A DNA stretch of 64,000 bases from Nevskia sp. GTDB lineage: Bacteria > Pseudomonadota > Gammaproteobacteria > Nevskiales > Nevskiaceae. The position numbers and the translations under genes are program-made. Shown here piece by piece: positions 1,151 to 58,625 of this stretch. The stretch lies in the NCBI GenBank assembly GCA_021732745.1, contig JAKFUK010000004.1, positions 310,001-374,000 on the forward strand, read 5' to 3'. Within the stretch, counting starts at the first letter, position 1; each line of letters starts with the position of its first letter. The notes under the pieces are model-generated. The model saw only the letters and a program-made list of their open reading frames with translations. It was not told the DNA's origin and searched no databases.

Positions 1151-1252
1151 CTCACGCAGAGAACGCGGAGAACGCAGAGAAAGAAAAATCAGAATCTTCT
1201 TTCAAGCTGTTGCCGTTGCTGTTCTCTGCGATCTTTGCGTTCTCTGGGTGAG
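1151..1252. repeat. Long imperfect inverted repeat with 9-nt units (copy 1)
   Basis: Arms of about 31 nt (1151-1181 and 1222-1252) pair with a few mismatches. The left arm reads as three consecutive 9-mers of the type ACGCAGAGA, ACGCGGAGA, ACGCAGAGA. It fills the gap between two co-directional genes of one operon (SDR and thiolase). It belongs to the family seen at 2246, 5791, 12188, 35523, 37174, 56100 and, as a variant, 58440. As RNA it would fold into a stem-loop; a role in transcript processing or stability is only a guess. Confidence 0.85.
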
Positions 1253-1272
1253 AAAGCTTTGAAAGTTCCGGC

Positions 1273-2202
1273 TCAGACCGGATCCCAGGTGAACACGTCA
1301 CCCGAGCGGTGCAGCGGATAGAAATCGTTCTGGAACTGCGGGAAGACGCGCTCGACGATCGCTTCCGGCGTCCAGCCTTCGGCCGTGTGCGCGGTGCGGA
1401 TCGGGCGCGGCTGGCTGAACAGGTAAATTTCATTGTTACGCACACCAAAGATCTGACCGGACACGGTCTTGGCGGCGTCGGAGGCCAGCGCGACCACGAA
1501 CGGCGCGATCTTTTCCGGGATCAGCTTCTTCAGGCCTTCGACACGCTTCTTCTGCTCCGGCGTCTCGTCCGGGATCGAGCTGACCATGCGCGTCCAGGCG
1601 AACGGCGCGATGGCATTGGAACGCACGCCGAAGCGCTGCATGTCGAGCGCGATCGCCTTCGAGAGACCGACGATGCCGAGCTTGGCCGCGCAGTAGTTGG
1701 CCTGACCGAAGTTGCCGACCAGACCCGAGGTCGAGGTCATGTGGATGAAGCTGCCCGAGCCCTGCTCTTTGAAGTAGGGCGCAGCGGCACGGCTGGTGTT
1801 CCACGAGCCCTTCAGATGCACGGCAATGACAGCATCGAATTCCTCTTCCGACATCTTGTGGAAGATCACGTCGCGCAGGTTGCCGGCGTTGTTGACGACG
1901 ATGTCGATGCGGCCGAAAGCGGTGCGGGCGGCTTCGATCATCGCCTGCGCGCCTTCGAAGCTGGCCACCGAATGGGTGTCGGCGATCGCATCGCTGCCCA
2001 GTTCCTTGATTTCGCGGACAACGCTGTCGGCTGGTGATTCGCCGCCCGCTTCACCGGTCAGCGACACGCCGAGATCATTGACGACGACCTTGGCACCGGC
2101 ACGGGCCAGTTCCAGTGCGATGCCGCGACCGATGCCGCGACCGGCACCGGTGACGAGAGCGACCTTGCCGCTGAGCAGGCCTGTAGGAGTGGTGTCTGAC
2201 AT
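1273..2202 (-). CDS. SDR-family 3-hydroxyacyl-CoA dehydrogenase-like (MFE-2 / 17beta-HSD4 type)
   Basis: Short-chain dehydrogenase of 309 residues, probably oxidising a 3-hydroxyacyl-CoA with NAD+. The TGAGRGIG nucleotide motif is at residues 18-25, the NNAG motif near 104, and the catalytic Ser157, Tyr170 and Lys174 follow. The stretch VVVNDLGVSLTGEAGGES resembles the dehydrogenase domain of peroxisomal multifunctional enzyme type 2 and its actinobacterial relatives. The frame is open further upstream, but that part is only hairpin sequence, so I chose the ATG at 2202, which has CGGAA upstream. It lies between a CoA-transferase-like gene and a thiolase in the same operon, as expected for a beta-oxidation step. 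Confidence 0.88.
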   Translation of the reverse strand: MSDTTPTGLLSGKVALVTGAGRGIGRGIALELARAGAKVVVNDLGVSLTGEAGGESPADSVVREIKELGSDAIADTHSVASFEGAQAMIEAARTAFGRIDIVVNNAGNLRDVIFHKMSEEEFDAVIAVHLKGSWNTSRAAAPYFKEQGSGSFIHMTSTSGLVGNFGQANYCAAKLGIVGLSKAIALDMQRFGVRSNAIAPFAWTRMVSSIPDETPEQKKRVEGLKKLIPEKIAPFVVALASDAAKTVSGQIFGVRNNEIYLFSQPRPIRTAHTAEGWTPEAIVERVFPQFQNDFYPLHRSGDVFTWDPV

Positions 2203-2245
2203 GGTGAGTTCCGTTGTGTTGATCGGTGCGAAATAAAAATCAAAT

Positions 2246-2386
2246 GTTAAACGCAAAGGCGCAAAGGAAAAGCAAAGAAAGGACGCAAAGAGAAACAAAA
2301 CAGGAATGCGGTGACAACAATCTTTCGAATAGCTTTTCTTGCTGTTCTTTGCGTCCTTTCTTTTCCCTTTGCGCCTTTGCGTTTAA
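2246..2386. repeat. Long imperfect inverted repeat with 9-nt units (copy 2)
   Basis: Purine-rich left arm (2246-2294) with repeated ACGCAAAGG-like units and pyrimidine-rich right arm (2344-2386) ending in CTTTGCGTTTAAC. It fills the gap between the CoA-transferase-like gene and the SDR, both transcribed leftward. Same family as the copy at 5791, with which it shares the AACGCAAAG outer sequence rather than the CTCACGCAGAG ends of copies 1, 4, 35523 and 37174. Confidence 0.85.
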
Positions 2387-2414
2387 CCGTTGCTGTTGAC
2401 TGGCTGCATCAAGT

Positions 2415-3671
2415 TCAAAGCCGCCGCAGGATCTCGTCCCACTCGGCCGCGAGCTGAGCCCGGAACGACGGTGCCGCGACCGCGATCAGCGCTTCGGCGC
2501 GACCGCGCAGGTCGCGGCCACGCAGTTCGGCGATGCCGTGCTCGGTGACGACGTAATCGGCGGCATGGCGCGGCAGCGCGACCAGACTGTTGTTGAAGCG
2601 GGAGACGATACGCGTGAAGCGTCCATCGTCCGTCGCCGCCGGCAGGGCGACGATCGAGCGGCCGCCGTTCGATAGCTGCGCACCAGCCACGAAAGCAGGC
2701 AAGCCGCCGACACCGGCCATCAGCTTGCCGTTCAGGCTGTCGGCGTTGACCTGGCCGAACAGATCGACTTCCACCGCCGAATTGATCGCGCAGAAACTAT
2801 CGATCGCGGCGATCCGGCGGATGTCGTGGGTTTCGCTGACCGGACGGAAGTAGTAGCTGTCGTCCTTTTCCAGCCGCGCGTAAAACGCCGCGTCGCCGAG
2901 CGCGACACCGGCGTCGATCGCGCCTTTCGCCGCGATCGCGCCCGCATCGACGAGCTTCGACACCGCATCGGTGACCATGCCGGACCAGATCCGCAGGCCC
3001 CGATGGTTGGAAAGTGCTGCCAGGATCGCGCCCGGCAGCTTGCCGACGCCGAACTCCAAGGTATCGCCGTCGCGGACCAGACTGGCGACCAGGGCCGCGT
3101 GCTGCTCGATCGCAGGATTGCTGCTGCCGGCGTAGTAATGGACCAGCGCGCTGTCGGTCTCGAAATAGCCGTCGACTTCGGCGAGCTTCACCGAGAACGA
3201 GCCACGGGTGCGCGGGACGTTCGGATTGATGTGCAGGACGCGGCGCTTGGCCTTGGCCCAGACCGCCGGATGGAAATCGCTGCTCGGGCCGAAGCTGCAG
3301 GTGCCACTGGCGTCCGGCGGGCTGACCTGGGCGATGACCAGATCGACCTCGCTGGCGCGCGCCGCGAGATCGCGATAGATGCCCGGATAGTCGAGCGTCG
3401 CCAGTTCGGCGCGGCTGTCGACCAAGCCCGGGCGCAGGCCCGGCGTCATCACGTAGGCGCGCTGGCGGGCTTCGGGATGCAGGCCTAGGTAGTCGCTGCG
3501 GTTGATGCCGGGGAAATGCAGGCCGATGAAGCGGACGCCGGCGGTTTTGTCCGGTGCATCTTTCAGCGCCTCGAAAAAGGCGAGGCTTTCACCGGCGAGG
3601 CCGGGCACGAATACGGTCATGCCGGGAGCTAGCCCGGCGACGATTTCGGCAACTTCGAGCTTCTGGCTCAT
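2415..3671 (-). CDS. Acetyl-CoA hydrolase/transferase family protein lacking the usual catalytic Glu
   Basis: Protein of 418 residues of the 4-hydroxybutyrate CoA-transferase / acetyl-CoA hydrolase family. It has the C-terminal landmarks INSAVEVDLFGQVN (about 296-309) and GVGGLPAFVAGA with SNGGRSIVALP. In family members I recall an HSEM-type segment carrying the Glu that forms the CoA thioester; the matching segment here is IWSGMVTD (229-236), with Gly231 where Glu is expected. It may therefore be a hydrolase or C-C bond cleaving enzyme rather than a transferase, or use another residue. Its start overlaps the end of the MaoC gene by 4 bases, so the two are tightly coupled. Confidence 0.85.
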   Translation of the reverse strand: MSQKLEVAEIVAGLAPGMTVFVPGLAGESLAFFEALKDAPDKTAGVRFIGLHFPGINRSDYLGLHPEARQRAYVMTPGLRPGLVDSRAELATLDYPGIYRDLAARASEVDLVIAQVSPPDASGTCSFGPSSDFHPAVWAKAKRRVLHINPNVPRTRGSFSVKLAEVDGYFETDSALVHYYAGSSNPAIEQHAALVASLVRDGDTLEFGVGKLPGAILAALSNHRGLRIWSGMVTDAVSKLVDAGAIAAKGAIDAGVALGDAAFYARLEKDDSYYFRPVSETHDIRRIAAIDSFCAINSAVEVDLFGQVNADSLNGKLMAGVGGLPAFVAGAQLSNGGRSIVALPAATDDGRFTRIVSRFNNSLVALPRHAADYVVTEHGIAELRGRDLRGRAEALIAVAAPSFRAQLAAEWDEILRRL

Positions 3672-4066
3672 GGCCTCGCCAGCACGGCGTTGCCGACGAT
3701 GATCGACTTGCCGTCGCCGTCGAAGGCTTCCAGATCGAGCGTCAGGCCATTGGCCGTGTGGCTGACGAGCTTGGCAGTGCAGCGCAGCGATTGATTCACC
3801 GGCAGCACGGCCACGAAGCGGGCATCGAACTTGGTCAGCGTGAACGCCGCAAACTGCGTGCTGACCAGCTGCCCGAGCAGCGCCATGCCGAGCATGCCGT
3901 GGACGATCACGTCATCGAAGCCAGCCTTCTGGGCGAAGGTGGTTTCCAGATGCAGCGGATTGCTGTCGCCCGAGGCTTCGGCGTACAGCGCGAGCTGTTC
4001 GCGCGGGATCGGGCCGGTCTGGTATTCGGCGACCAGATCGCCGGGGTTTGCGGTATCGAGATTCAT
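3668..4066 (-). CDS. MaoC-family hydratase (catalytic hot-dog subunit)
   Basis: Single hot-dog-fold protein of 132 residues. It carries the hydratase-2 motif SGDSNPLH at residues 32-39, with the expected catalytic Asp34 and His39, so it can probably add water to an enoyl-CoA (R-specific). The ATG at 4066 overlaps the end of the preceding gene (4063-4482), which encodes a related fold without this motif. Such pairs normally form a heteromer in which only one subunit is catalytic. The large open frame upstream of the ATG is a shadow of that neighbour. Substrate unknown; context suggests a ring-derived acyl-CoA. Confidence 0.88.
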   Translation of the reverse strand: MNLDTANPGDLVAEYQTGPIPREQLALYAEASGDSNPLHLETTFAQKAGFDDVIVHGMLGMALLGQLVSTQFAAFTLTKFDARFVAVLPVNQSLRCTAKLVSHTANGLTLDLEAFDGDGKSIIVGNAVLARP

Positions 4067-4482
4067 GATTTCGGCACCGGATTGCGCACCAGCACCACCT
4101 GCCGCGAACGGCCGAGCAGGCCGCGCTCGGCGTGGGCAACGGTCGATTCGATGACGATGAAATCCATCGCGCCGTTCTTCTTGTCGTAGAGGTCGGTCAC
4201 GGTACGCTGCACGACCAGGCTGTCGCCAGCGCGGATCGGTCCCAGATAGTCGAACTGCTGCTCGGCATGCAGGACGCGGCGCAGGTCGACACCCAAGGTT
4301 TCGAGAATGCGCCGCGAGCTGTTCTGCTCGCCTTCGACCGCTTTCATGAAGGTTGGCGGGGCGATGTCCTGCGGGCCATCTTCGGCGCCGATTGCCTTCA
4401 GAAACAAAGCGATGCGTGCTGCCGTCACCTCGACGGTGAACGGCGGCAGCGCAAAGCCGAGATGGGCGCGGTCGATGGCCAT
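4063..4482 (-). CDS. MaoC-like N-terminal (FAS1-like) dehydratase domain protein
   Basis: 139-residue hot-dog protein of the FAS1-like dehydratase type. A hot-dog helix region (PPTFMKAV, about 42-49) and the strand region HAEQQFDYLGPIRAGD are visible, but no SGDxNPxH motif, so it is likely the non-catalytic, substrate-binding partner of the MaoC protein encoded at 3668-4066. The two genes overlap by 4 bases and should be translated together. It also abuts the end of the crotonase gene at 4482. The arrangement resembles paired MaoC subunits used in mycobacterial fatty acid and sterol metabolism; that comparison is from memory. Confidence 0.82.
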   Translation of the reverse strand: MAIDRAHLGFALPPFTVEVTAARIALFLKAIGAEDGPQDIAPPTFMKAVEGEQNSSRRILETLGVDLRRVLHAEQQFDYLGPIRAGDSLVVQRTVTDLYDKKNGAMDFIVIESTVAHAERGLLGRSRQVVLVRNPVPKS

Positions 4483-5747
4483 CAGGCAGCGGCCGTCGCC
4501 GGTTCGGCAAAGAACGCGGCAATCGCAGCATCGTCACCGGCCAGCTTGGCGAGTGCCGCTGCGCCAATCTGGCGGGCGTAGGTGTACGGGCCGCCGGCGT
4601 AGGACGGGAACAGGCCGCCGATCACCGCTGCAACATCAGCCAGTTCGGGATGCTCGATACCGCCGGCCTGCGCGCAACGCAGTGCGGCGACCGTCGCCAG
4701 CGCCAGCTTCGTGGCTTCGTCGACACCGTTCGCCTTGGCCTGCTCGTTGGCGGCTTTCAGCGCCGGCAGCAGCGCGTGTTCGCCACGGGTCAGCACCGAA
4801 TCCGGGGCCAGCAGGCCGAGCTTCGAGGCTTTCTGACGATTGAGGAACAGGGTGCGGACCATGTTGCCGGCGACCGGATCGCGCATCAGCTCGACGAAGA
4901 TGTCCATCTCGCGGTCGCAGGCCTGGGTCAGCGGCATGTTCCAGCCGCCGACCACGCAGTTGATGATCGCCGTGTAGGCCGGATAGTGCTTGAGCTGGTA
5001 GTCGCTGACGCCAACGTCCTGGGCGATCGTCGCGATGATCGTCGGGCTCTTGAAGTCGTAGGGGGCCGAGTCGAAGTTTGCGCCGTGGCGATCCCAGAGC
5101 GCGCGTGGCTGCGGCATCGCCTTGGCGAGTTCCTTGGCTTTCGCGATCAGCTGATCAGCCGGCACCACGGCATCGACCAGCTTCAGCTTCAGCGCTTCGG
5201 CCGGGCCGACCGGATCGCCGACCAGCAGCATTTCCAGCCCCTTGGCGGGGCCGACCAGACGCGGCAGGCGCTGCGTGCCGCCGGCCCCCGGCAGCAGGCC
5301 GAGCTTGATTTCCGGCAGGCCGAGCTGCACGGCCTTTTCATCGTCCAGCACCACGCGGGCGTGGCAGGCCATCGCGACTTCCAGACCACCGCCGAGCGCC
5401 AGGCCATTGATGGCGGCGATGTAGGGCTTGGTCGACAGTTCGAGACGGCGGAACAGCCGGCCAAGGTGGCCGAACAGTTCATTCAATTGGGGAACGGCGT
5501 CGATCTTCGCGCGCTCGGTGAAGACCCGGATCATGTCCAGATCGGCACCGGCGAGGAAGGCCGACTTGCCCGAGGTCAGCACCACGCCCTTGACCGCAGC
5601 GTCGCCAGCGACCGAGGTCATCAGCGCATCGAGCGAATCCATCATGGCGCGCGAGAACACGTTCATCGTGCGGCCCTGCATGTCGATGCGGGCGACGAGG
5701 ATGCCGTCGGCGTCGAGTTCAGTCTGGATGTTGCTGTCGTTGAACAT
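4482..5747 (-). CDS. FadB/FadJ-like crotonase lacking the NAD-binding dehydrogenase domain
   Basis: 421-residue protein. Residues 1-200 are a crotonase domain with both catalytic glutamates in place (Glu123 in GGGLEVA, Glu146 in LPEIKLG) and the [10 protein letters not shown] loop. Residues 200-300 resemble the linker of FadB/FadJ trifunctional alpha subunits. It then continues directly into a segment like the far C-terminal dehydrogenase domain ([25 protein letters not shown]). The Rossmann domain with its GxGxxG motif is missing, so it should hydrate enoyl-CoA but not oxidise the product; the SDR of the operon could do that. The ATG at 5747 is preferred over a TTG at 5786. Confidence 0.87.
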
Positions 5748-5790
5748 GGGTGTGCTCTGCTTGCTGACGGGTGGTTTGAAAACCAAGCAA

Positions 5791-5928
5791 CATCAAAATT
5801 TCAACGCAAAGACGCAAAGGGAAAAGAAAGAACGCAAAGGAAAAGCAATAAGGACTCACTTGATGGAGTCTTTTACCTTTGCGTCCTTTCTTGGCTGTTC
5901 TTTGCGCCTTTGCGTTTAACTTTTGATG
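5791..5928. repeat. Long imperfect inverted repeat with 9-nt units (copy 3)
   Basis: Outer ends CATCAAAA and TTTTGATG pair. Inside are ACGCAAAG / ACGCAAAGG / ACGCAAAGG units on the left and CTTTGCG units on the right, with a small inner stem GACTC-N8-GAGTC at the tip. It fills the gap between the BadI-like gene and the crotonase, both leftward. Arms are about 50-58 nt each. Confidence 0.87.
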
Positions 5929-5953
5929 TTGCCGTTGACGCTCGATACAGCGA

Positions 5954-6754
5954 TCAAGCGAACTTCTTGAAATCCGGCTTGCGCTTCTCGTTGAAAGCGG
6001 CAACGCCTTCCTTCGATTCGTCGCTCATGTAGTAGCCCTTGACGGCGGCCACGCCCATGAAGCTGATGCCGCGGATATTTTCGCTGTCGGCGTTGAACGA
6101 ACGCTTGGCGATGGCGATTGCGGTCGGGCTCATGAAGTTGATCTCGGCGGCCCAGGCTTCGCACTCGGCGTCGAGCTGGTCGTGCGGCACGACCTTGTTG
6201 ACCAGACCCATGTCCATCGCTTCCTGCGCCTTGTAGCGGCGGCACAGGAACCAGATTTCGCGGGCCTTCTTTTCGCCGACCACGCGGGCGAGGTAGGCGG
6301 TGCCGAAGCCCGGATCAACCGAGCCGACCTTCGGGCCGACCTGGCCGAACTGCGCCTTCTCGGAAGCGATGGTCAGATCGCAGATGGTGCAGAACACGTT
6401 GCCGCCGCCGATCGCGAAGCCCTGGACGCGAGCGATGACCACCTTGCGGCAGTCGCGGATCGCGGTCTGGAGTTCTTCGATCGGGAAGCCGACCATGCCG
6501 CGCGGGCCGTACAGGCCGTCTTCCGAGTAATGCACCTTCTGGTCGCCGCCGGTGCAGAACGCCTTGTCGCCGGCGCCGCCGAAGATCACGGTGTTGACCG
6601 ACTTCTCTTCATCGGCACGACGAAACGCGTCGATCAGCTCTTCGACCGTCTGGTTGCGGAACGCATTGAACACTTCCGGACGGTTGATGGTGATGCGAAC
6701 GGCGTTGGCGCCGACTTCGTAGATGATGTCCTTGTAGACGGGTGCGTTCGACAT
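5954..6754 (-). CDS. badI-like: BadI-like 2-ketocyclohexanecarboxyl-CoA hydrolase (ring-opening crotonase)
   Basis: 266-residue crotonase-superfamily protein closely resembling BadI of Rhodopseudomonas palustris, which opens the ring of 2-ketocyclohexane-1-carboxyl-CoA to give pimelyl-CoA. Shared stretches include AFCTGGDQ (65-72), ARVQGFAIGGGNV, FGQVGPKVGSVDPG and VVGEKKAREIW. The Ser145/Asp147 pair in GSVDP matches the BadI/MenB active site, and the classic hydratase glutamates are absent. It is the first gene of the leftward operon and faces a palindromic operator at 6841. The match is by recollection of the family; the natural substrate could be a substituted or polycyclic ketone. Confidence 0.86.
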   Translation of the reverse strand: MSNAPVYKDIIYEVGANAVRITINRPEVFNAFRNQTVEELIDAFRRADEEKSVNTVIFGGAGDKAFCTGGDQKVHYSEDGLYGPRGMVGFPIEELQTAIRDCRKVVIARVQGFAIGGGNVFCTICDLTIASEKAQFGQVGPKVGSVDPGFGTAYLARVVGEKKAREIWFLCRRYKAQEAMDMGLVNKVVPHDQLDAECEAWAAEINFMSPTAIAIAKRSFNADSENIRGISFMGVAAVKGYYMSDESKEGVAAFNEKRKPDFKKFA

Positions 6755-6840
6755 GGCGTTTCTCGAGCAGGTTTGAGGTGGTGCAGACGAAGTTCAGCGG
6801 CAACACGCGGTACCGGCGCAGGCCAGCACACCGGTATATC

Positions 6841-6854
6841 GTATGGAACCATAC
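6841..6854. promoter_or_regulatory. Palindromic operator GTATGG-N2-CCATAC (site 1)
   Basis: Perfect 6-bp arms with AA spacer, in an AT-rich stretch within a GC-rich region, midway between the divergent BadI-like gene and the hydratase homologue at 6942. The same palindrome occurs at 13228 and, with one mismatch, at 35463, each time in a promoter region of a catabolic SDR. Likely target of a TetR-type repressor; the regulator is not proven. Confidence 0.7.
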
Positions 6855-6941
6855 AATAATATCAAAGCGGCGGGCATCGTGGCGGCAGCGGGTTTGCCCG
6901 CGTCGTCATCGGCTGCTCCGCATCATCACAGGAGAGCCGAC

Positions 6942-12164: not shown

Positions 12165-12187
12165 GGGAGGTCTGGAAGAAAAAGCGA

Positions 12188-12342
12188 TCTCACGCGGAGA
12201 ACGCAAAGGACGCAGAGAAAAGCGAAGGACCGGAAACGCGAAACGCGGAGAACACATCGAAAAGCTGGATCGAGGCAGCTTTCTTTCGAAAGCGTTTCTC
12301 GTCGTTGCTTTTCTCTGCGCTCTCCGCGTTCTCCGCGTGAGA
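12188..12342. repeat. Long imperfect inverted repeat with 9-nt units (copy 4)
   Basis: Outer ends TCTCACGCGGAGAACGC and GCGTTCTCCGCGTGAGA pair perfectly. Arms are purine-rich on the left and pyrimidine-rich on the right, with 9-mers ACGCGGAGA / ACGCAAAGG / ACGCAGAGA. The loop region itself holds further partly self-complementary copies. It separates the BadH-like gene and the MDR oxidoreductase, both leftward. Confidence 0.87.
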
Positions 12343-12366
12343 CATGCGGTTGCCGCTTTTCGGCTT

Positions 12367-18596: not shown

Positions 18597-18703
18597 CCCT
18601 TCTCCCCCCCGGGAGAAGGGTTGGGATGAGGGACTCCCCGGCGAAGTAAGTCCGCTGCTTGCGAGTCCCTCACCCCCGCCCCTCTCCCGGGGGGAGAGGG
18701 GAG
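18597..18703. repeat. Intergenic inverted repeat of the CCCTTCTCCC type
   Basis: Two G/C-rich hairpins, CCCTTCTCC/GGAGAAGGG (18597-18620) and CCCCTCTCC/GGAGAGGGG (about 18679-18703), are joined by a stem GAGGGACTC / GAGTCCCTC (18629-18637 and 18663-18671). The left and right halves are also complementary to each other. It lies between gpsA and the WS/DGAT gene. Similar sequences are scattered in gammaproteobacterial genomes as far as I recall. It could attenuate transcription between the two parts of the operon. Confidence 0.8.
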
Positions 18704-21111: not shown

Positions 21112-21123
21112 TTTCGAACAGCG

Positions 21124-21230
21124 ATCTCACGCGGAGAACCGCTTTTTTTGTAGGTCGTCAATCATGGCGACGGCGCTGCGGTCGAACGGCAGCCGCGCCG
21201 TCGGGTTGAAACCCGACCTACAAAAGCGGC
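21124..21230. repeat. Hairpin GTAGGTCG...CGACCTAC next to a decayed 9-nt-unit arm
   Basis: A long hairpin pairs CGCTTTTTTTGTAGGTCG with CGACCTACAAAAGCGG (21140-21157 and 21214-21229). It has an inner stem CGACGGCGCTGCGG / CAGCCGCGCCGTCG. Directly upstream, TCTCACGCGGAGAAC (about 21126-21139) equals the outer end of the 9-nt-unit inverted repeats, but its partner arm is missing, as if one repeat had been interrupted by another. It lies between the lipase and AraC genes (convergent) and may act as a terminator. Confidence 0.75.
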
Positions 21231-35434: not shown

Positions 35435-35462
35435 GTTCAGATTCCTGCGGGTGGGAAAATTG

Positions 35463-35476
35463 ATATGGGACCATAC
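35463..35476. promoter_or_regulatory. Palindromic operator, one mismatch to GTATGG-N2-CCATAC (site 3)
   Basis: Reads ATATGG-GA-CCATAC: identical to sites 1 and 2 except the first base. It lies 29 bases upstream of the SDR start and near the divergent TetR gene at 35756, which is the nearest candidate regulator. Confidence 0.65.
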
Positions 35477-35522
35477 GATATTTGCGCTTTGGCGGCAATC
35501 GGCTGGGCGCTTTGAAAAGCCT

Positions 35523-35723
35523 GTCTCACGCAGAGAACGCGGAGGACGCAGAGAACAGCCAAAGCGAGAACGGCAAAAGCTCCGGGGCACAAAGAACAGG
35601 GACAGCAAGGGCACAAAGGAAACGCTTTCAAGCTTTCTTTGTGTCCTCGCTTTGTGCCTTTGTGCTCCCGAGCTTTTCTCGCTTTGGCTGTTCTCTGCGT
35701 CCTCCGCGTTCTCTGCGTGAGAC
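35523..35723. repeat. Largest inverted repeat of the 9-nt-unit family (copy 5)
   Basis: About 95-nt arms. The outer 48 bases on each side are exact complements, starting GTCTCACGCAGAGAACGC on the left and ending GCGTTCTCTGCGTGAGAC on the right. Inner parts (GGCACAAAG units) pair imperfectly. It fills the gap between the divergent SDR and TetR genes and ends 32 bases before the TetR ATG, so it would be in the TetR leader if the promoter lies upstream of it. Confidence 0.92.
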
Positions 35724-35755
35724 CCGCTTCCCCCGCGATGCCGCATCATTGCGCC

Positions 35756-37141: not shown

Positions 37142-37173
37142 GCGGCTGGGCGGAACAGGACAAAACAACAGGT

Positions 37174-37268
37174 CTCACGCAGAGAACGCTGAGCACGCAG
37201 AGAACAGCAAAAACGAGAAAAGCCTTTTTCAAGGCTTTTCTCTGCGTTCTCCGCGTTCTCTGCGTGAG
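37174..37268. repeat. Long inverted repeat with 9-nt units (copy 6)
   Basis: Arms beginning CTCACGCAGAGAACGC and ending GCGTTCTCTGCGTGAG. The loop is short, with an inner GAAAAGCCTT / AAGGCTTTTC stem, so it forms an almost continuous hairpin of about 45 bp. It lies between the convergent TetR and AlkB-like genes and may act as a bidirectional terminator. Its right end touches the 3' end of the hydroxylase gene region (stop at 37276). Confidence 0.9.
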
Positions 37269-37275
37269 GAAGCTT

Positions 37276-44050: not shown

Positions 44051-44542
44051 ATGGCCGATTCGCACGACATCGCGCAGCAGGGACCCTCGGCCGACGAAGT
44101 CCGCGACCTGGTCGCCTTCGTCGACAAGACCGCCTGGTGGCTGGACGACTGCCTGAGCATTCCCGGCACCCGCTTCCGCTTCGGGCTCGATTCCATCGTC
44201 GGCCTGATTCCGGTCGGCGGTGATGTGCTGGCGCTCGGCGTATCGGTCCTGACCCTGACGCGCGCCGCCCGTGCCGGCGTGCCGCGCGGCGTGCTGTTCC
44301 GGATGGCGCGCAATGTCGCGCTCGACTTCGGTGGCGGCCTGATCCCGGGCCTGGGCGATGTCTTCGACGCGGTGTTCAAGTCGCACCGCCGCAATTTCGA
44401 GCTGCTGCGCAAGGAATACGCGCCGATGCTGACGCCGATCGCGCCGCGTCGACAGGCACCGCTGTGGCTGCGGCTGGCCGGGGCGATCGCCATTGCCGCG
44501 ATCAGCTACGGCGTCTGGACGTACTTCCGCAGCGGCACGTAG
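44051..44542 (+). CDS. DUF4112 family membrane protein
   Basis: 163-residue protein with the DUF4112 pattern: LDSIVGLIPVGGDVLALGVSV followed by LDFGGGLIPGLGDVFDAVFK (each at the limit of the conserved block) and a C-terminal membrane helix (LAGAIAIAAISYGVWTYF). Function unknown. It is 9 bases after ubiB and may be co-transcribed with it, although nothing ties it to ubiquinone. Confidence 0.85.
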   Translation: MADSHDIAQQGPSADEVRDLVAFVDKTAWWLDDCLSIPGTRFRFGLDSIVGLIPVGGDVLALGVSVLTLTRAARAGVPRGVLFRMARNVALDFGGGLIPGLGDVFDAVFKSHRRNFELLRKEYAPMLTPIAPRRQAPLWLRLAGAIAIAAISYGVWTYFRSGT

Positions 44543-44607
44543 GTCCGGATTCATCCGGACATCACTCACCTTCGACCGCTGCGCTGTCCGGATGAATCCG
44601 GACCTAC
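44539..44607. repeat. Perfect inverted repeat GTAGGTCCGGATTCATCCGG type
   Basis: Perfect 23-nt arms (44539-44561 and 44585-44607) with a 23-nt loop, just after the DUF4112 stop. Unrelated in sequence to the 9-nt-unit family, but similar in outer letters (GTAGGTC) to the hairpin at 21150. Confidence 0.9.
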
Positions 44608-51882: not shown

Positions 51883-52923
51883 TCAGCCCCGGCGATCGAG
51901 GCGGTCGAGCAGCGCCTCGACCATCGACGGCAGCCCATTGCGCAGCCCCAGTTCCGCCAGCCGCGCGCGCATCTGCGCGCGTCGATCCGCATCGCGCAGC
52001 AGCACCAGCACGGCCGGGGCAATCGGTGCCGCGTTCGGCGGCACTTCGACGGTCCAGCCTCGCGCGGCGTAGCGATGGATGCGGGCCAGCTGGTCGGAGC
52101 CGCCCAGCGGCAGCGTGACGGTCGGCACGCCGAGACTCATCGCCTGATGCAGCAGATGACCGCCGCCGGTGACCACCAGGATCGCCTGCTGCATCAGCCG
52201 CATCAGCGCAGCCTGCGCCTGCACGGGCAAGGCTTCGACCCGCGAATCGGCCCTGAACGGCTCGCTGCCGACGGTCAGCACGCGGGCACCGGAGGCCGTC
52301 GCCAGCCGGTCGGCAGCTTCCGCGAACACGGCGGGGACCGGGCGATCGTCGATGCGATAGCCGCCGCCGGTCGGCACGAACAGGACGTAGGGCGCGGCGG
52401 TCGAGGCGGCGCTGTCCTCGGCGGCGGTCACGGCATGGCAGACGTCGAAGACCAGCCGCCGGGTGCTGCCGATGGCGGCCAGCAGCCGTTGCCAGCGGCT
52501 GAACGCCGGTTGATCGAGCAGATAACGCTGGTGCCAGTGCTCGGGCAGTTGCCAGAGCCAGTCGGGCCGGAAGGTCTTGGCCAGGGTGCCGGGTTCATCC
52601 GATATGCAGATCGCATGCACGCGCAGGCGCCGGCAATGACGCAGCAAGGCACCCCGGCAGGTCTTGTCGAACACTGCGATGGCCGGCTTCAGGCGGGCGA
52701 TTTCCCGCTGGTGGAAGGAAACACGGTCGGCGTCCGGCAAATCGCTTTCGATGTGCTCGAACGGCAGCCGCGCGCGCAGCGGGCAGGCCTGCGGCATCAG
52801 GAAAACGATGCGCACGCGGGCATCGCGGGCCTGAAGCGCTTCGGCAATCGCCAGCAGGCGGAAGAATTCGCCGGTGCCGCCGTTCTGGTGCTGCGGCACG
52901 AACAGCACGCAGCGCTCGCTCAA
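51883..52923 (-). CDS. GT-B glycosyltransferase, MurG/PseG-like
   Basis: 346-residue protein with a GT-B two-domain layout. The C-terminal sugar-nucleotide domain has VVTGGGHLLHQAMSLGVPTV (split as VVTGGGHLL and AMSLGVPTV) and GGSDQLARI, as in MurG and related enzymes. Acceptor and donor are unknown. Its start overlaps the stop of the GT9 gene, and four genes in a row overlap this way, so it belongs to a surface-polysaccharide or LPS operon. Confidence 0.78.
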   Translation of the reverse strand: MSERCVLFVPQHQNGGTGEFFRLLAIAEALQARDARVRIVFLMPQACPLRARLPFEHIESDLPDADRVSFHQREIARLKPAIAVFDKTCRGALLRHCRRLRVHAICISDEPGTLAKTFRPDWLWQLPEHWHQRYLLDQPAFSRWQRLLAAIGSTRRLVFDVCHAVTAAEDSAASTAAPYVLFVPTGGGYRIDDRPVPAVFAEAADRLATASGARVLTVGSEPFRADSRVEALPVQAQAALMRLMQQAILVVTGGGHLLHQAMSLGVPTVTLPLGGSDQLARIHRYAARGWTVEVPPNAAPIAPAVLVLLRDADRRAQMRARLAELGLRNGLPSMVEALLDRLDRRG

Positions 52924-53933
52924 GGCACGCGGTCCAGCAGTGCGGCGGCGGCGTCGATGAACACTTGCAGGTCGAAGCCATGCAGGCCGTCATCGCGCGA
53001 TTCCGGCGCGACGAAGGCGCGATGCTGTTCGGGATCGTCCGGAAACCAGTTCTTCAGGTGATGGTTGGGCCGGAACCAGGACACCGAGGGCGTGGCGGCG
53101 ACGCGAGCGACATGCAGGCCGCCGGAATCCGGGCCGACATGGAGTGCGGCACCCTGCACCAGCGACATGAAGCCGTGGACGTCGAGCGAGCCGTCGAAGA
53201 CGTATTCCGGCGTGTAGCCGATGCCGGCCAGGATCGCCGCCAGCTTGGCGCGGCCGCGATCGGTGCCGTGACCGCTGACCGCGAACGGGCGCTCGGGAAA
53301 GCGCGCACGCAAGCCATTCCAGAGCGCGATCATCTGCGCCACCGGCAGGTCGCGGCGGTCATCGGTGGCGCTGGCGCTCAGGTGCAGGTAGCGGCCGTCG
53401 TCAGCTTCAAGGATCCCGGCCTTGCGGCGCAGGCTTGGGTCGATCGCGACATGGAATTCCGGCCGCTCGCCATCGAGCCCAAGGGCGCGGAACGCATTCC
53501 AGCGCTGCCGGTACATCGGAATCTCGTGAAACGGATGCTCGGCCACCACATCCAGCAGCCAGGGCTGCCAGGACCAGCGCTTGTTCTCGTCGGCCTTGCG
53601 GGCGATGCGCAGCGCCGCCCCGCTCAATCCGCCGAACGACACCGCGTGATTGCTGCTGGTGATGACGATGGCGACATCGGCCTTCAGGCGGCGCAGTTGC
53701 CCGATGAACCCGAGATCGGCTTTCAGACCGGCCTTGCGATAGACGATCGGCCGGTCGATCCACGGCGTCAGCACGCCATAGAGCCCGGAGTTGCCGACCA
53801 CACAAAGTTCGGCCTGTGGCGCGTTCTGCCGGATCAGCCACAGTGCCGGCAGGCTGTGGATGTGGTCGCCGAGGCCGCCGAGGTCGATCACCAGCACGCG
53901 GCGGGCGGTGCCAAGTGCGGTCTTGACGCTCAT
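52920..53933 (-). CDS. Glycosyltransferase family 9 (heptosyltransferase-like)
   Basis: 337-residue GT9 protein. VLVIDLGGLGDHIHSLPAL at the N-terminus and VGPDSGGLHVARVAATPSV at the C-terminus are family hallmarks (acceptor-side glycine loop and nucleotide-sugar binding). Such enzymes add heptose or similar sugars to the LPS core. It overlaps both neighbours by 4 bases. A second GT9 gene lies at 56253 on the opposite strand. Confidence 0.86.
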   Translation of the reverse strand: MSVKTALGTARRVLVIDLGGLGDHIHSLPALWLIRQNAPQAELCVVGNSGLYGVLTPWIDRPIVYRKAGLKADLGFIGQLRRLKADVAIVITSSNHAVSFGGLSGAALRIARKADENKRWSWQPWLLDVVAEHPFHEIPMYRQRWNAFRALGLDGERPEFHVAIDPSLRRKAGILEADDGRYLHLSASATDDRRDLPVAQMIALWNGLRARFPERPFAVSGHGTDRGRAKLAAILAGIGYTPEYVFDGSLDVHGFMSLVQGAALHVGPDSGGLHVARVAATPSVSWFRPNHHLKNWFPDDPEQHRAFVAPESRDDGLHGFDLQVFIDAAAALLDRVP

Positions 53934-54979
53934 CGGACCGGTTCGCGGCAGCGCTTCAGCGCCGCGATGTGATCGGCCAGGCTCAGGCCGTGTCTGGCGA
54001 TGAAGCCGGCCGGCACCCGGTGCGGGGCGGCGCAGGCTTGCTTCAGTGCGGCAAGGATGGCGTCGGCGCTGATTTCCGGAAGCCGGATGCCATCGTCCGG
54101 CCCCATCAGTTCGGCGACACCGGCGTCGGCCCCGATGATGGCCGGCGTGCCGCAGGCCAGCGATTCGGCGATCACCAGACCGAAAGGCTCGTAGCGCGAG
54201 GGCAGCACGGTCCAGTCGGCGGCGGCGTACAGCGCCGGCATGTCGTCGACATAGCCCAGCGGCGTGACGCGCGGCGGCAGCGCCTTGCGGGCAGCACGGC
54301 CGGCGACCAGCAGGCGCGCGCGCGGATCATCGAGCTGCATGAAGGCATCGAGCAGCGGCGCCAGCCCCTTGCGGGCGTGGTCCATCGACGGGAACACGAA
54401 GGCGATCTCGTCCGGCTTGACACCCAGCGCCTGCCGGGCCACGGCGCGGGCGCGGGCATCACGCGGCGCGAAACGCTGGCCGTCGACCGGCGGATAGATC
54501 ACCCGGGTTCGGGCGGCCGCTTCCGCGTAGTGCGCGCCGATCTGCGCCGCCAGCGTTCGCGAATGGGCGACCACGGTTTCCGCACCATCGAGCATGGCCC
54601 GTTCGAGCCGGGTTTCGCTGCGGTCATGCGCGGAATCGGCGCGCTGCATCGCCGCGCAGAAACCCGGATGGGTGCCGCCGTTGATCGCGACGTGATGGCC
54701 GCGGGTGCGCGCCAGCGAGATCACCAGCGGATAGCGTTCCGTCAATTCCAGCCGGGCGATGCGCGAAGCAAACACGCGGTTGCGGAACACGCGCGGCAGC
54801 GGCAGGGGCAGCAGGCGATAGGCATTGGCACCCAGCGTGCGCGCCCAGTCGGCATCGACTTCGCGCGCCCAGACATCCACGGTGTCGCCGGCCGCGCGGA
54901 AACCGCGCACCAGATCGGCAAGATAGGACTCCATGCCGCCGCCGCGCTTGACGCTGTAGTGGACGAGCGCGACGTTCAA
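53930..54979 (-). CDS. Glycosyltransferase family 4
   Basis: 349-residue GT4 enzyme. HYSVKRGGGMESY gives the N-terminal glycine loop, and RYEPFGLVIAESLACGTP contains the two Glu residues of the E-x7-E motif. Retaining transfer from a nucleotide sugar is expected; the sugar is not known. Operon member with 4-base overlaps on both sides. Confidence 0.88.
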   Translation of the reverse strand: MNVALVHYSVKRGGGMESYLADLVRGFRAAGDTVDVWAREVDADWARTLGANAYRLLPLPLPRVFRNRVFASRIARLELTERYPLVISLARTRGHHVAINGGTHPGFCAAMQRADSAHDRSETRLERAMLDGAETVVAHSRTLAAQIGAHYAEAAARTRVIYPPVDGQRFAPRDARARAVARQALGVKPDEIAFVFPSMDHARKGLAPLLDAFMQLDDPRARLLVAGRAARKALPPRVTPLGYVDDMPALYAAADWTVLPSRYEPFGLVIAESLACGTPAIIGADAGVAELMGPDDGIRLPEISADAILAALKQACAAPHRVPAGFIARHGLSLADHIAALKRCREPVR

Positions 54980-55965
54980 CGGCCGCCCTTCAGCGCGATG
55001 CGCCGCGCGGCGCGGCGGGTGTTTTTGGTCCAGCGGGCATCGGGATCGGCACGGGCGCCGCGCAGCAATTCGGCCAGCCGCTCGAAACGCGGCCGGGCGC
55101 GGTCGCTCAGCAGGCTGTCCACCTGCTGCAACCAGGCCACCGCGCGATGGCCGAGCGACAGATCGTCGGCGTATTGGGCGAACGCCGGTTCCTTCGCCAG
55201 CCGCGCCAGCACATCGAGATGCTCGTCGCGGAAACGCGGCCCGGTGCTGACGGTTTTCGATTCGCTGTGGAAGCGGAAATGCGCCAGCGTGTCGCTGACA
55301 TAGCGCACGCGCGGGAACTGGTGCAGGTAGCGGATCAGCAGTTCGTAATCGAAGCGGAAATGGCTGGTGGCGTCGATGCCGCTGGCGATCATCGCCTCGC
55401 GGCGCATCCAGATCGCCGGCTGGTGCCAGCGACAGCCGGACGGCAGTTGTTCGAGGATCAGCGAGCGCACGTCGAGCTGCCGGCAGACCACCTTGCCGCG
55501 CGCACCGTGCTCATCGAACTGTCGGGTGACGCCGCCGACGAGATCGACTTCGCCCTGCTGGATCGCCGCCGCGACGGTCCACAGGGCGTCCTGGGCCAGC
55601 ACGTCATCGGAATTGATCCAGATGAACCAGTCGCCGGTGGCGCGATGCAGGCCCTTGAGGATGGCATCGACCTGACCGCGATCGCGTTCCGACACCCAGC
55701 CGCTTAAAGCCGGCGCGTAGTGCTCGATGATGCTGCGACTGGCGTCCGAACTGCCGCCGTCGATCACGAAGTATTCGAGCGCCGGATAGCCTTGGGTCAG
55801 CACCGAGCGGAGGGTGGTTTCCAGGTAGGCCGCCTGGTTGTAGGACGGCGTCACCACGGTGAGCTTCGGCAGCGGATCGCGCAGGCTGGCCGGTCGCGGC
55901 GGCGGCGCTGCCGGCAGGCTCAGGCCGCAAGGCAGCAGCAGCGGGTTCAGAAGTTCGGGGAGCAT
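54976..55965 (-). CDS. Glycosyltransferase family 2
   Basis: 329-residue GT-A enzyme. The GT2 core is visible: LTVVTPSYNQAAYLETTL, FVIDGGSSDAS and WINSDDVL, the last carrying the metal-binding acidic pair. A C-terminal helical part follows. It is the first gene of the leftward glycosyltransferase operon and has a proline-rich start of about 30 residues that may be non-essential. Confidence 0.88.
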   Translation of the reverse strand: MLPELLNPLLLPCGLSLPAAPPPRPASLRDPLPKLTVVTPSYNQAAYLETTLRSVLTQGYPALEYFVIDGGSSDASRSIIEHYAPALSGWVSERDRGQVDAILKGLHRATGDWFIWINSDDVLAQDALWTVAAAIQQGEVDLVGGVTRQFDEHGARGKVVCRQLDVRSLILEQLPSGCRWHQPAIWMRREAMIASGIDATSHFRFDYELLIRYLHQFPRVRYVSDTLAHFRFHSESKTVSTGPRFRDEHLDVLARLAKEPAFAQYADDLSLGHRAVAWLQQVDSLLSDRARPRFERLAELLRGARADPDARWTKNTRRAARRIALKGGR

Positions 55966-56099
55966 CGGCTGCGGGCGGGGTGAGAGCGAGTTGCGGGTTG
56001 GCAGCCGCTACGCTGCGGCGTCGCAAATTATCGTACGGTAAATGCCGGACGGGCCATGCGCTCGCCGTGGTGATGGTCGGCGCAGGTGTTACGCAAACA

Positions 56100-56223
56100 G
56101 CGTTTTTGCGCGGAGGCGCAGAGGGAAAAGAAAGGACGCGGAACAGCAACGGCGAGAAAATTGTGTGTTTTCGCTTTTTGCCTTTCTCCTCTTTGCTGTT
56201 CTCCGTGCCTCTGCGCTAAAAGC
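56100..56223. repeat. Long imperfect inverted repeat with 9-nt units (copy 7)
   Basis: Left arm GCGTTTTTGCGCGGAGGCGCAGAGG, then purine-rich units; right arm ends CCTCTGCGCTAAAAGC. It is more diverged than the other copies. It lies between the divergent GT2 and GT9 genes (55966-56252). The rest of that gap holds only an AT-rich patch near 56025-56042, possibly a promoter. Confidence 0.75.
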
Positions 56224-56252
56224 TTTTCAGCTTTTCACGCTCCCCACCCGCG

Positions 56253-57317
56253 ATGCCCGCCCCCAACCCCCGCTCGATCCTGGTCATCTGCATGCGCCGC
56301 CTCGGCGACGTGCTGCTGTGCACGCCGCTGATCGCCAGCCTGCGCCGCGCGTATCCGGATGCGCGCATCGACGCGCTGGTGTTCAAGGGCACCGAGGGCA
56401 TGCTCGAAGGCAATCCCGATCTCGACCGCTGCCTGACCATGCCCAATGGCAGCCGCAAGCTGCCATTCCCGTGGCGCAGCTACGATCTGGCGATCAGCAC
56501 CCAGGCCAATGACCGGCCGCATCTGATCGCCTTCCTCGCTGGCCGCAGCCGCGCCGGCATCGTGCCGGGCTTGGTGCCGCGCGCGGAGCGCTGGAAACGC
56601 TGGCATTGCCGCTGGTGGCATGAGAACGATGCCGAGCGCCGCCACACCGTGGAACAGGCGCTGAAACTGGCCGATGCGCTCGGCATCGCCCGCCATCCCG
56701 ATGTCGTGCCACCGCGCGGCAACGCGCCGCCACTGATCGACGTGGCAGACGGTGCCTACGCCGTGCTGCACCTCGCGCCGATGTTCCGCTACAAGGCTTG
56801 GACCCCGGCGCGCTGGGCGGAACTGGTGGAAGCACTCTGGCAGCGCGGCCTGCGGGTGGTGATCAGCGGTGGGCCGGCTGCTTCTGAACGCGCGCTCAGC
56901 GATGAACTGCTGGCGCTGCTGCCGAAGGACGGCGGCGCGCTGGTCGATGTGGTCGGCAAGCTCACGCTCGGCGACCTCGCCAACGTGATCAAGGGCGCGG
57001 CGCTGTTCGTCGGTCCGGACACCTCGATCACCCATCTGGCGGCGGCCTGCGGCGTGCCGGTGGTGACCCTGTTCGGACCATCGAATCCGCTGATCTGGGG
57101 ACCGTGGCCGATCGGCCAGACCATACCCGGCGAATCGCCGTGGCGGCTGGTGGCACCGATCCAGACACGCGGCAACGTGACCATCGTCCAGGGCGTGAAG
57201 GCCTGCGTGCCCTGTCTGGTCGAAGGCTGCGATCGGCACAAGGAAAGCCGCGCCGCCTGTCTCGACGAGATGCCCGCAGCGCGCGTGATCGCGGCGGTTG
57301 ATGGCGCGCGGCCATGA
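56253..57317 (+). CDS. Glycosyltransferase family 9 (heptosyltransferase-like), second copy
   Basis: 354-residue GT9 protein with ILVICMRRLGDVLLCTPL at the N-terminus, LHLAPMFRYKAWTPARW, and FVGPDTSITHLAAACGVPV with LFGPSNP at the C-terminus. It is closer to LPS heptosyltransferases of the WaaC/WaaQ type than the copy at 52920. Its stop overlaps the next gene's start by 4 bases. The ATG follows directly on the inverted repeat, so the leader is short. Confidence 0.88.
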   Translation: MPAPNPRSILVICMRRLGDVLLCTPLIASLRRAYPDARIDALVFKGTEGMLEGNPDLDRCLTMPNGSRKLPFPWRSYDLAISTQANDRPHLIAFLAGRSRAGIVPGLVPRAERWKRWHCRWWHENDAERRHTVEQALKLADALGIARHPDVVPPRGNAPPLIDVADGAYAVLHLAPMFRYKAWTPARWAELVEALWQRGLRVVISGGPAASERALSDELLALLPKDGGALVDVVGKLTLGDLANVIKGAALFVGPDTSITHLAAACGVPVVTLFGPSNPLIWGPWPIGQTIPGESPWRLVAPIQTRGNVTIVQGVKACVPCLVEGCDRHKESRAACLDEMPAARVIAAVDGARP

Positions 57318-58303
57318 GCCTGCCGAAGCTGCTGTTCGTCGGTCACAGCTTCCACCAGCAGACTGGCAGCAGCCGCTTCTTCATCGACCTGTTGCAGCAG
57401 CACTTCGCGGTCACCGTGGTCTGGGATGACGGCTGGAAAGCCGATGGCACGCCGCTGAGCGCCGACGCGCTCAACGCCCATGCCGCCGATCTGACCCTGT
57501 TCTGGCAGGCGCTGCCGAAGCGCGCCGTGCTGCGTCGCCTGCGCTGCCGGCGGCTGTTCTGGGCACCGATGCGCGACGGCATCAGCCTGCTGCCAGCGCC
57601 GTGGCGGCGGCTCAAGCCCAGCGGCCTGCGGCTGATCAGCTTCTGCAGCGAAGCGCACGACTACTGCACCGCCGCCGGGCTGGAATCCCATGCCGTGCAG
57701 TACTGGCCGACGCCGCTCGAAACGCCACCGGTGATCGGTGATGAACCGCTGCGGCTGTTCTTCTGGATGCGTCGCGGCACGCCAGGCTGGCCGACCCTGA
57801 AGGCGCTGCTCGGCAGCACGCGCCCCGAACGGATCGTGCTGCGCACCGTCGCCGATCCCGGCGAAACGCTGAGCCTGCCGACCGAGGCCGAGCGCGCCGA
57901 ATACCGCATCGAACAGCTGCCGGACTGGCTGGAAAAGACCGACTACCTGCGCCTGCTCGGCAGCTGCAATGCCTTCATGGCACCGCGCCTGCTCGAAGGC
58001 ATCGGCCTGTCGTTCCTCGATGCGATGGCGCTCGGCCAGGCGGTGATCGCGCCGGACCGGGCGACGATGAACGAGTACGTCCATCACGGTGTCAACGGCT
58101 GGCTGTACGACCCGGACGCGCCGCAGCCGCTGGATTTCTCGACGCTGCGCGGCCTGCGCGAGCAGGCGCTGCGCGATGTCTCCGACGGTCACGCCCGCTG
58201 GCTGGGCGGCCTGCCGGCATTGATCGGCTACCTGTCCGATCCCGCCGAGAACCGCGCCTCGCCGGGCTGGCGCTTGCAGCGGCTGCTGCTTGGCCCTTGG
58301 TAG
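57314..58303 (+). CDS. Glycosyltransferase (GT-B, GT1/GT4-like)
   Basis: 329-residue protein. The C-terminal half resembles GT4 enzymes (APRLLEGIGLSFLDAMALG, with the pair of Glu/Asp residues, and HHGVNGWLYD), while the N-terminal half (VGHSFHQQTGSSRFFIDLL) is less typical. Probably transfers a sugar to the same surface glycan as its overlapping GT9 neighbour. I cannot assign donor or acceptor. Confidence 0.75.
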   Translation: MSLPKLLFVGHSFHQQTGSSRFFIDLLQQHFAVTVVWDDGWKADGTPLSADALNAHAADLTLFWQALPKRAVLRRLRCRRLFWAPMRDGISLLPAPWRRLKPSGLRLISFCSEAHDYCTAAGLESHAVQYWPTPLETPPVIGDEPLRLFFWMRRGTPGWPTLKALLGSTRPERIVLRTVADPGETLSLPTEAERAEYRIEQLPDWLEKTDYLRLLGSCNAFMAPRLLEGIGLSFLDAMALGQAVIAPDRATMNEYVHHGVNGWLYDPDAPQPLDFSTLRGLREQALRDVSDGHARWLGGLPALIGYLSDPAENRASPGWRLQRLLLGPW

Positions 58304-58625
58304 GGTGGGCAGGCTTCATCTGCCCACCGATTCGCCGACATTCGATCGCTGCGCACCGCGTGGGCCGATGAAGCCTGCCCAGGTGCAGGCTGGCGGCGAC
58401 GGCGCGGCTGCCAGCCGAAGGCAGCGGGTCGTGAATCAGTTTGAAATGTGGTCGTGAGGTTTCGCACGAAGTACACAAAGAACACGAAGAAAATCAATCC
58501 AATACCATCAGATTGACGTCTTTCTTGGTGGCCTTTGTGTACTTCGTGCGAAATCGCTTCATCGCAATTTCAAAGTGATGCACTGCCAGGCAGCGCCGTC
58601 AGCTTGAAGCTCGACGTTTCACCCC
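58304..58625. other. Intergenic region filled by two inverted repeats
   Basis: 322 bases between the convergent glycosyltransferase and glpK genes. GTGGGCAGGCTTCATC (from 58305) pairs with GATGAAGCCTGCCC (58367-58380), and a second, larger hairpin follows at 58440-58574. No credible gene. Confidence 0.75.
58440..58574. repeat. Inverted repeat with 9-nt units, variant (copy 8)
   Basis: Arms pair TTTCGCACGAAGTACACAAAG with its complement (written in two parts: TTTCGCACGAAG and TACACAAAG). The left arm again reads as 9-mers: ACGAAGTAC, ACAAAGAAC, ACGAAGAAA. The outer ends TTTGAAAT / ATTTCAAA also pair. It lies between convergent genes, so it could terminate both. Confidence 0.85.

Follow-up and report, generated by a model that had tools for sequence, protein, structure and literature searches.

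The stretch analysed here, hereafter the window, comprises 64,000 nucleotides of a Nevskia sp. genome (GenBank assembly GCA_021732745.1, contig JAKFUK010000004.1; C4:310001-374000 of G000 in our numbering, a 3.99-Mb genome in six contigs) and has a G+C content of 65%. Gaps between its genes harbour a family of hairpins, each built of a purine-rich arm of short tandem units and the same arm inverted. We propose that these hairpins are probably non-autonomous, gene-less copies of a small mobile element that encodes a nuclease of the GxxExxY family. The eight copies and one orphan half named in a preliminary description of this DNA were all recovered at their positions by a scan for inverted pairs and by direct reading. 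Seven of the eight, with arms of 31-54 nt that are 83-96% complementary, stand among the 25 inverted pairs listed out of 44; the copy at 56100 is missing from this list and was identified by direct reading. The features, compared where possible with sister genomes, are as follows:

1143..1262, no strand: type-a hairpin; G002 is without it, and G015 has at that position a hairpin in a different dialect
2236..2397, no strand: type-d hairpin; not in G005 or G002, with a type-e hairpin in the gap of G015
5787..5932, no strand: type-d hairpin; also type d in G005, type e in G015, empty in G002
12180..12350, no strand: type-a hairpin with an added second layer; G011 shares this element, and the hairpins of G015, G005 and G002 are different ones
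21118..21144, + strand: orphan half, one type-a arm, then a palindrome resembling repetitive extragenic palindromic (REP) sequences
35510..35736, no strand: nested composite hairpin of types a and e in a divergent gap; G011, G015, G005, G010 and G014 are without it, and the gap of G002 is longer and not comparable
37165..37275, no strand: type-a hairpin between convergent genes; a terminator-like hairpin, recognised by eye, lies in the gap of G005, G010, G002, G015 and G011
56097..56224, no strand: hairpin with the skeleton of type d and RGAG units
58427..58587, no strand: 161-bp miniature inverted-repeat transposable element (MITE) with terminal inverted repeats GGYMGTGMMTCASTTTGAAAT, around a type-b hairpin (arms 58460-58492 / 58521-58553)
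58419..58426, no strand: 8-bp target-site duplication, left copy AGGCAGCG
58588..58595, no strand: 8-bp target-site duplication, right copy AGGCAGCG

The preliminary description ascribed one design with a 9-nt period to all copies. The shared build of inverted arms made of tandem units holds, but the sequences fall into several dialects, and neighbouring units mostly lie 8 or 9 nt apart, with 10 nt in one foreign dialect. Type a, TCACGCRGAG-AACGCRRAG-NNCGCRGAG, is represented in the window by copies 1151, 12188, 21126 and 37174, and type d, AACGCAAAGGCGCAAAGG...AAGGACGCAAAG, by copies 2246 and 5791. Copy 35523 is of type a with another type nested in its loop, copy 58440 is a type-b hairpin within the MITE with its 8-bp target duplication, and copy 56100 combines the d skeleton with RGAG units. 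The further dialects of G000 are b (TTTCGCACGAAG...), c (CACGCCAAG), d and e.

Type a, the commonest, was parsed in 63 elements. Its left arm reads approximately AAAAGC-NRTC-TCACGCRGAG-AACGCRRAG-NNCGCRGAG-AAMAGC, and the right arm is the inverse. Border and arm logos of 62 elements demonstrate that the element ends sharply at AAAAGC, with random sequence and nothing conserved outside, while the loops vary from copy to copy. Among 135 strict type-a arms in the G000 sample (about a third of the genome), 116 pair into 58 hairpins of 81-455 bp (median 125.5); 57 of these are no longer than 286 bp, and the sole 455-bp hairpin is the copy that holds a GxxExxY gene. The other 19 arms are orphans, 11 of them with a partner scoring above shuffled controls and three followed by a REP-like palindrome. 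Hairpins also occur within the loops of other hairpins, and a composite of types a and e of about 210 bp, present in nine copies in the sample including 35523 (mutual match about 71-83%), is amplified as a unit.

Genome-wide search showed that the copies are real: the double unit ACGCRRAGRACGCRRAGR, with at most one mismatch, occurs at 399 places in G000, and the backwards pattern at three. Sixty-three paired clusters were found in 61 sampled stretches versus four in the reversed sequences, at least one of the 63, located in a gene, being a chance match. The 22 paired elements in 604 kb of stretches not selected for matches (window included) extrapolate to about 145 paired hairpins per genome. 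After merging, 82 elements are distributed over 42 tandem, 18 divergent and 13 convergent gaps, with eight at stretch edges and one in a gene; the other gaps comprise 364 tandem, 103 divergent and 66 convergent ones, and no bias towards a gap type was detected (Fisher p 0.28 for divergent and 0.20 for convergent gaps). The elements are inverted doublets forming hairpins, mostly extragenic.

Some longer copies carry a gene between matching arms. Two such genes are present in G000: one at C1:828150 with type-a arms, located before purA (identity assigned on the sister locus L376), and one at C2:264748 with type-d arms, between nuoF and a nuoG-like gene. A gene lies inside the arms also at G015 C1:205285. 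Wide arm pairs were found in five public loci with the triple unit, and at one of them, L235 from a zetaproteobacterium, the arms enclose a PF13366 gene; three of the others comprise two with open reading frames lacking a Pfam match and one without a clear gene. Both G000 proteins and that of L235 exceed the curated cut-off of the GxxExxY family (TIGR04256/PF13366).

PF13366 is present in 43 of 50 genomes taken from the 118 stretches with the repeat pattern (chosen by hand for spread, not randomly, and including L235 and L296) and in 32 of 117 relatives (p 1e-12). CRCRRAG pattern counts in these relatives range from 484 (G000) down to 0, with the backwards control reaching 22 in some genomes; PF13366 occurs in nine of the eleven genomes with more than 20 matches versus 23 of the 106 others (p 1e-4). 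Gene flanks were compared at 60 loci, the best one per genome, from 30 of the 32 relatives, whose loci were not selected by repeat, and 30 of the 43 others. An inverted-arm score of at least 20 was reached by 48 of the 60 (25/30 relatives, 23/30 others) versus 7.4% of permuted pairs and 30/340 control genes, and a score of at least 25 by 39 of the 60 versus 2.7% and 4/340. Forty-five loci score at least 18 within 140 nt; their purine-rich arm lies upstream of the gene in 36 and downstream in one, and eight are mixed. Arms missed by the CRCRRAG pattern have the same build with units CGCAAAT, CRCAGATT or CAGGAT.

The checked neighbours of the gene are core genes: nuoF, the nuoG-like gene, purA, carA, carB, gcvPA, sufC and that of a 2-oxoacid dehydrogenase subunit. 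At L349, L356, L367, L376, L350 and L371 GxxExxY stands beside core genes (e.g., carA-carB, nuoF), and its position recurs within a clade. At L356 (about 1484-1488) the last unit ends in AAAGG directly before a GTG start, and this AAAGG could be the nuclease gene's ribosome-binding site. The gene was also found on seven plasmids. A search of viral contigs, limited to close relatives of the L235 protein, gave 12 stretches matching the peptide pattern, none of them confirmed as a relative.

By its signature and predicted fold, GxxExxY is a predicted PD-(D/E)XK nuclease. The residues G24-xx-E27-xx-Y30, D67, E77-x-K79 and Q91-xxx-Y95 are conserved in 59-62 of 62 proteins, the PD-(D/E)XK signature itself in 61 (D67), 62 (E77) and 59 (K79). 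The ratio of non-synonymous to synonymous substitution rates (dN/dS) is 0.06-0.17 in the four of five pairs that allowed a value, in two of which dS exceeds 1.5. The alignments thus indicate that the gene is under purifying selection, with a conserved, presumptive catalytic signature. The AlphaFold model of the L235 protein, computed with three relatives, has a mean pLDDT (predicted local distance difference test) of 90.5 and a pTM (predicted template modelling score) of 0.84. The best Foldseek match is 4ic1, SSO0001, a Cas4 nuclease (E 2.7e-3, probability 1.00), followed by LHK-Exo and lambda exonuclease; no Foldseek match fell below E 0.001, and a sequence search of the PDB gave no match. 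With PADLOC, two of three proteins matched Cas4 weakly, and the remaining one weakly matched a different PD-(D/E)XK model. Searches of the open-licence literature gave two papers for GxxExxY, a single passing mention of PF13366 and nothing on PDDEXK_3.

The dialect of the arms tracks the phylogeny of the protein. In a tree of 62 proteins only four changes of unit class are needed among the 56 labelled rows (six rows without a clear class were excluded), while 500 shuffles gave at least 10 and on average 13.6. Within the genus, the number of matches tracks the cognate gene. DNA of the element at the nuo site has 59, 57, 46 and 27 matches in the four genomes that carry it, whereas the remaining 14 have 2-10, most of them the gene flanks alone; the nuo gap is shorter by about 470-505 bp in G002, G010, G011 and G014, where the element is missing. 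The element at the purA site has 63 matches in G000, 63 in G016 (where the gene is broken), 27 in G015, 10 in G011 (where the arms are of type b) and 0-7 in the other 14. A search for CGCRAAT, devised after these counts, gave high numbers in each of the six relatives whose gene belongs to that clade (128, 127, 45, 41, 19 and 15); G053 has five matches, three of them around its own partial gene. At the nuo site, where four sisters have the nuclease element, the gap of G016 (L434) is occupied by an unrelated palindrome, as if this place accepted many kinds of hairpin.

Comparison of orthologous gaps demonstrates that sites are gained or lost. The divergent gap 35435-35755 lacks the element in G011, G015, G005, G010 and G014. 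Gap 2203-2414 holds type d in G000 and type e in G015 and is empty in G002; gap 5748-5953 holds type d in G000 and G005 and type e in G015 and is again empty in G002; gap 12165-12366 has a hairpin in all five genomes, of differing kinds. These differences of dialect in orthologous gaps mean either that gaps are reoccupied repeatedly or that hairpins switch dialect in both arms. Together with the patchy copy number, the amplified composite and the nuclease gene inside longer copies, the empty gaps bear out the earlier suggestion of a mobile or self-propagating element class. Four elements could be aligned with sister copies, and in the two clean pairs the arms change at about the rate of the flanks (by eye); a third coincides with a synteny breakpoint. 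For a type-a hairpin at L087 17553-17669 and L154 2164-2283 such a breakpoint lies at the element: its left flank is common to G016 and its right flank is not.

The earlier suggestion that the hairpins are RNA structures selected for processing was not supported by comparison of the arms. At the purine positions of units 1, 2 and 3, left and right arms are identical in 31, 17 and 31 of the 63 elements (expected 25.4, 17.9 and 30.6), and in the 30 elements of tandem gaps, read along transcription, there are 35 A-C mismatches versus 25 G-U. Since purine variants are independent and G-U is not favoured over A-C, selection for RNA pairing is unsupported. Spacer length is the same in both arms in 51 of 63 elements versus 40.9 expected, so the independent variation of arms that the preliminary description named as evidence against its view was found for point variants and not for spacer length. 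Over the first 29 positions the arms are slightly more alike within elements (23.5) than between them (22.4). The arms are thus inherited together rather than kept complementary base by base. Among discordant purine sites of sampled type-a elements, read on the contig plus strand, G-left/A-right occurs 64 times and the reverse 38 times, perhaps through a replication-strand mutation bias.

A role of the hairpins as RNA, kept for stability, processing or termination of mRNA, is thus distinctly improbable. It would fit the symmetric AAAAGC...GCTTTT ends, which resemble a weak two-way terminator, the location of the 37174 element where sisters have a terminator-like hairpin, and the median distances of 27 bp to the stop codon and 72 bp to the start codon. 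Opposed to these are the independence of arm variants with no preference for G-U, a spectrum of gap types equal to the background with divergent gaps included, and the turnover of both presence and dialect between sisters. On the same grounds RNA structure was rejected as the basis of the family (arm independence, no G-U preference), as was a terminator role (no gap-type bias); the window has no Rfam 15 match above the gathering score. That replication slippage and quasi-palindrome correction produced the tandem units and the mirrored arms, with no element involved, is hardly credible. The agreement of spacer lengths between arms and the different loops of the copies would suit it, but copying from arm to arm should make the purine variants agree and they disagree, the borders are sharp, and the same unit logic recurs across many phyla, where 45 of 47 paired loci begin with the purine arm.

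The same arms, kept as motifs irrespective of pairing, would also suit DNA sites that the host maintains for chromosome organisation or repair and that a host nuclease serves, the element not being selfish. The gene's constant site across related genomes and its purifying selection point in that direction as well. Set against them, the repeats are patchy within one genus (from 484 pattern matches to 1), the gene lies within its own repeat, copies are nested, and some genomes abound in hairpins and lack the gene; we give this explanation a rather small chance of being right.

We find it unlikely that the hairpins are ordinary miniature elements whose DDE transposase is encoded elsewhere, with the nuclease gene as cargo, although one part of the family belongs here. 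A true MITE, the 161-bp unit at 58427-58587 surrounds a type-b hairpin: it has 11 copies with both ends, seven of them with perfect 8-bp target duplications, two with one mismatch and two with more mismatches, when the ends are allowed to shift by up to 2 bp. A similar repeat was seen by eye around a type-e hairpin in L342. In contrast, type a has no consistent target duplication in 62 elements (offsets 6-19, lengths 2-9); the best short signal, three elements with a common 4-mer versus 0.24 expected over 196 offset pairs per length, was taken as chance. For all types together, repeats of at least 8 within 70 bp flank 11 of 82 elements versus about seven by chance, and three of the 11 are the 161-bp MITE. 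No related transposon was found among the 21 listed matches to the MITE ends or in the type-a sample, about a third of the genome, and no type-a hairpin or wider arm pair of the G000 sample stands out as able to hold a transposase. The one oriented type-a arm pair 1.7 kb apart consists of arms that each have a degraded partner of their own, and autonomous transposase-bearing copies were accordingly rejected for the sampled type-a hairpins. Moreover, a nuclease gene is found between arms again and again and agrees with them in dialect.

REP-associated tyrosine transposases (RAYT) were considered as the driver as well. Thirty Y1 genes were found in 18 genomes of the genus, and the flanks of 15, including all seven of G000, showed no hairpin arms, the nearest being a single arm about 450 bp upstream; several of these genes are flanked by other palindromes. 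A RAYT driver was rejected on these 15. REP-like palindromes occur in the window at 44539-44607, 58306-58381 and 21149-21225 (GTAGGTCCGG..., TGGGCAGGCTTCATC..., GTAGGTCG...), and all three resemble ones beside some Y1 transposase genes of G000.

We therefore return to the nuclease-encoding element. Its complete form would consist of a purine-rich arm with about three tandem CRCRRAG-type units, one gene of about 125 residues for a GxxExxY PD-(D/E)XK nuclease, and that arm again in inverted orientation. The arms most likely serve as arrays by which the cognate nuclease recognises DNA and not as RNA stems, each nuclease lineage having a unit dialect of its own. The gene is retained at a small number of core-operon sites (nuoF-nuoG, before purA, carA-carB), and copies without it would spread to intergenic gaps and into one another's loops. 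We infer that mobilisation is due to the nuclease, which would bind the arms and cut or process DNA so that the element is copied; the predicted fold, similar to those of Cas4 and lambda exonuclease, suggests a route through end processing or recombination.

Several observations weigh against this reading. As no consistent target duplication was found for type a, it is not proven to be a product of transposition. The wide arm pair of L296 (Abditibacterium, 581-1332) encloses between CACAGAG arms not a nuclease gene but an IS200-type transposase gene (PF01797, E 9.7e-36), which is perhaps an insertion into the loop. The 50 genomes in which PF13366 was counted were chosen by hand. Twelve of the 60 gene loci fall below an arm score of 20, and no clear arm pair of their own could be seen by eye at L374, L375, L381 (which nevertheless scores 20), L383, L392, L395 and L396. 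The three plasmid loci that were read differ: both arms are present in Bernardetia, only the upstream arm in Sphingomonas, and in Gemmatirosa a whole hairpin lies beside the gene. CGCRAAT counts are high with no detected gene in G058 (214), G012 (57), G050 (23) and G081 (11), and CRCRRAG hairpins are likewise abundant in G040 and G105; loss of the gene after spread, a divergent gene escaping detection, or another driver would explain such genomes. Finally, the gene site is common to the carriers, probably by descent, so the counts within the genus are not independent events.

Among described systems, the closest in logic is REPIN-RAYT, where non-autonomous inverted doublets are extragenic and numerous in a genome and a solitary gene is flanked by the same repeats (PMC3116915, PMC3733652). 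Both systems have hairpin doublets, a gene between the repeats and several repeat families, each with its own gene. The enzyme here is a predicted PD-(D/E)XK nuclease, whereas there it is an HUH tyrosine transposase; the arms here are tandem 8-10-mers, whereas there they are palindromes with GTAG or CGTC, tags absent from the 62-element logos; and no such arms stand beside the 15 of 30 Y1 genes checked. With an unrelated enzyme and unrelated repeats, the element is not a member of REPIN-RAYT (PMC3116915), and only the logic is the same. TIRtrons (TIRYT) likewise have a gene flanked by long inverted repeats, some of them also dispersed, but their enzyme is a tyrosine transposase and their repeats share GGGGWSAS or are mutually unrelated (PMC3733652).

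MITEs of DDE transposons are similarly short and gene-less with terminal inverted repeats, and 58427-58587 is one; type a differs in showing no target duplication, and a matching transposase was not found in the G000 sample. Free-standing homing endonuclease genes resemble our element as single small nuclease genes lodged between conserved genes, but the arms that flank our gene also occur in numerous copies without it. Cas4 and lambda exonuclease share the predicted fold (4ic1, E 2.7e-3) and the conserved QxxxY, while GxxExxY is shorter (about 125 vs about 200 residues) and stands alone. The intrastrand triplex motif (PMC4666352) is another sequence and was rejected as the identity of the hairpins. 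An inverted CCCTC/GGGAGAGGG repeat like that motif does occur at window 18605-18694; in G011, G005 and G002 this gap is short and hairpin-free, and in G015 it holds 9-mer units.

The repeat extends far beyond Nevskia. The exact triple unit CRCRRAGRACRCRRAGRACRCRRAG occurs in at least 118 stretches of genome contigs, which among the matches listed belong to Planctomycetota, Chloroflexi, Acidobacteria, Cyanobacteria, Verrucomicrobia, Aminicenantes and Proteobacteria, and also to Methanosarcinales and Methanoperedens archaea. An inverted partner within 300 bp is present in 47 of the 113 stretches with room for it, the purine arm being first in 45, and is absent at that threshold in 66; the Methanoperedens locus L265 is one paired hairpin. 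Of the papers listed when the open-licence literature was searched by repeat strings, none dealt with these repeats. Taking these data together, we lean towards a class of selfish DNA that is spread over many bacterial phyla, its hairpin extending to an archaeon, in which a Cas4-like GxxExxY nuclease and lock-and-key arms of tandem repeats co-diverge, and hairpins without a gene undergo copying, nesting and possibly conversion in place to the resident nuclease's dialect, all with no known transposase. In the open-licence literature searched, no described mobile system was found that includes this enzyme or this repeat.

A common intergenic repeat, unnamed in the open-licence literature searched, is thereby tied to a widespread protein family without known function, and both become testable, since the predicted DNA target of each nuclease stands beside its gene. 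If the proposal is true, it would provide a second, independently evolved counterpart of REPIN-RAYT and the first proposed role for the GxxExxY family. The spread of a repeat would then be supported by a Cas4-like nuclease and not by a transposase, and the dialect code would offer dozens of natural protein–DNA pairs to study.

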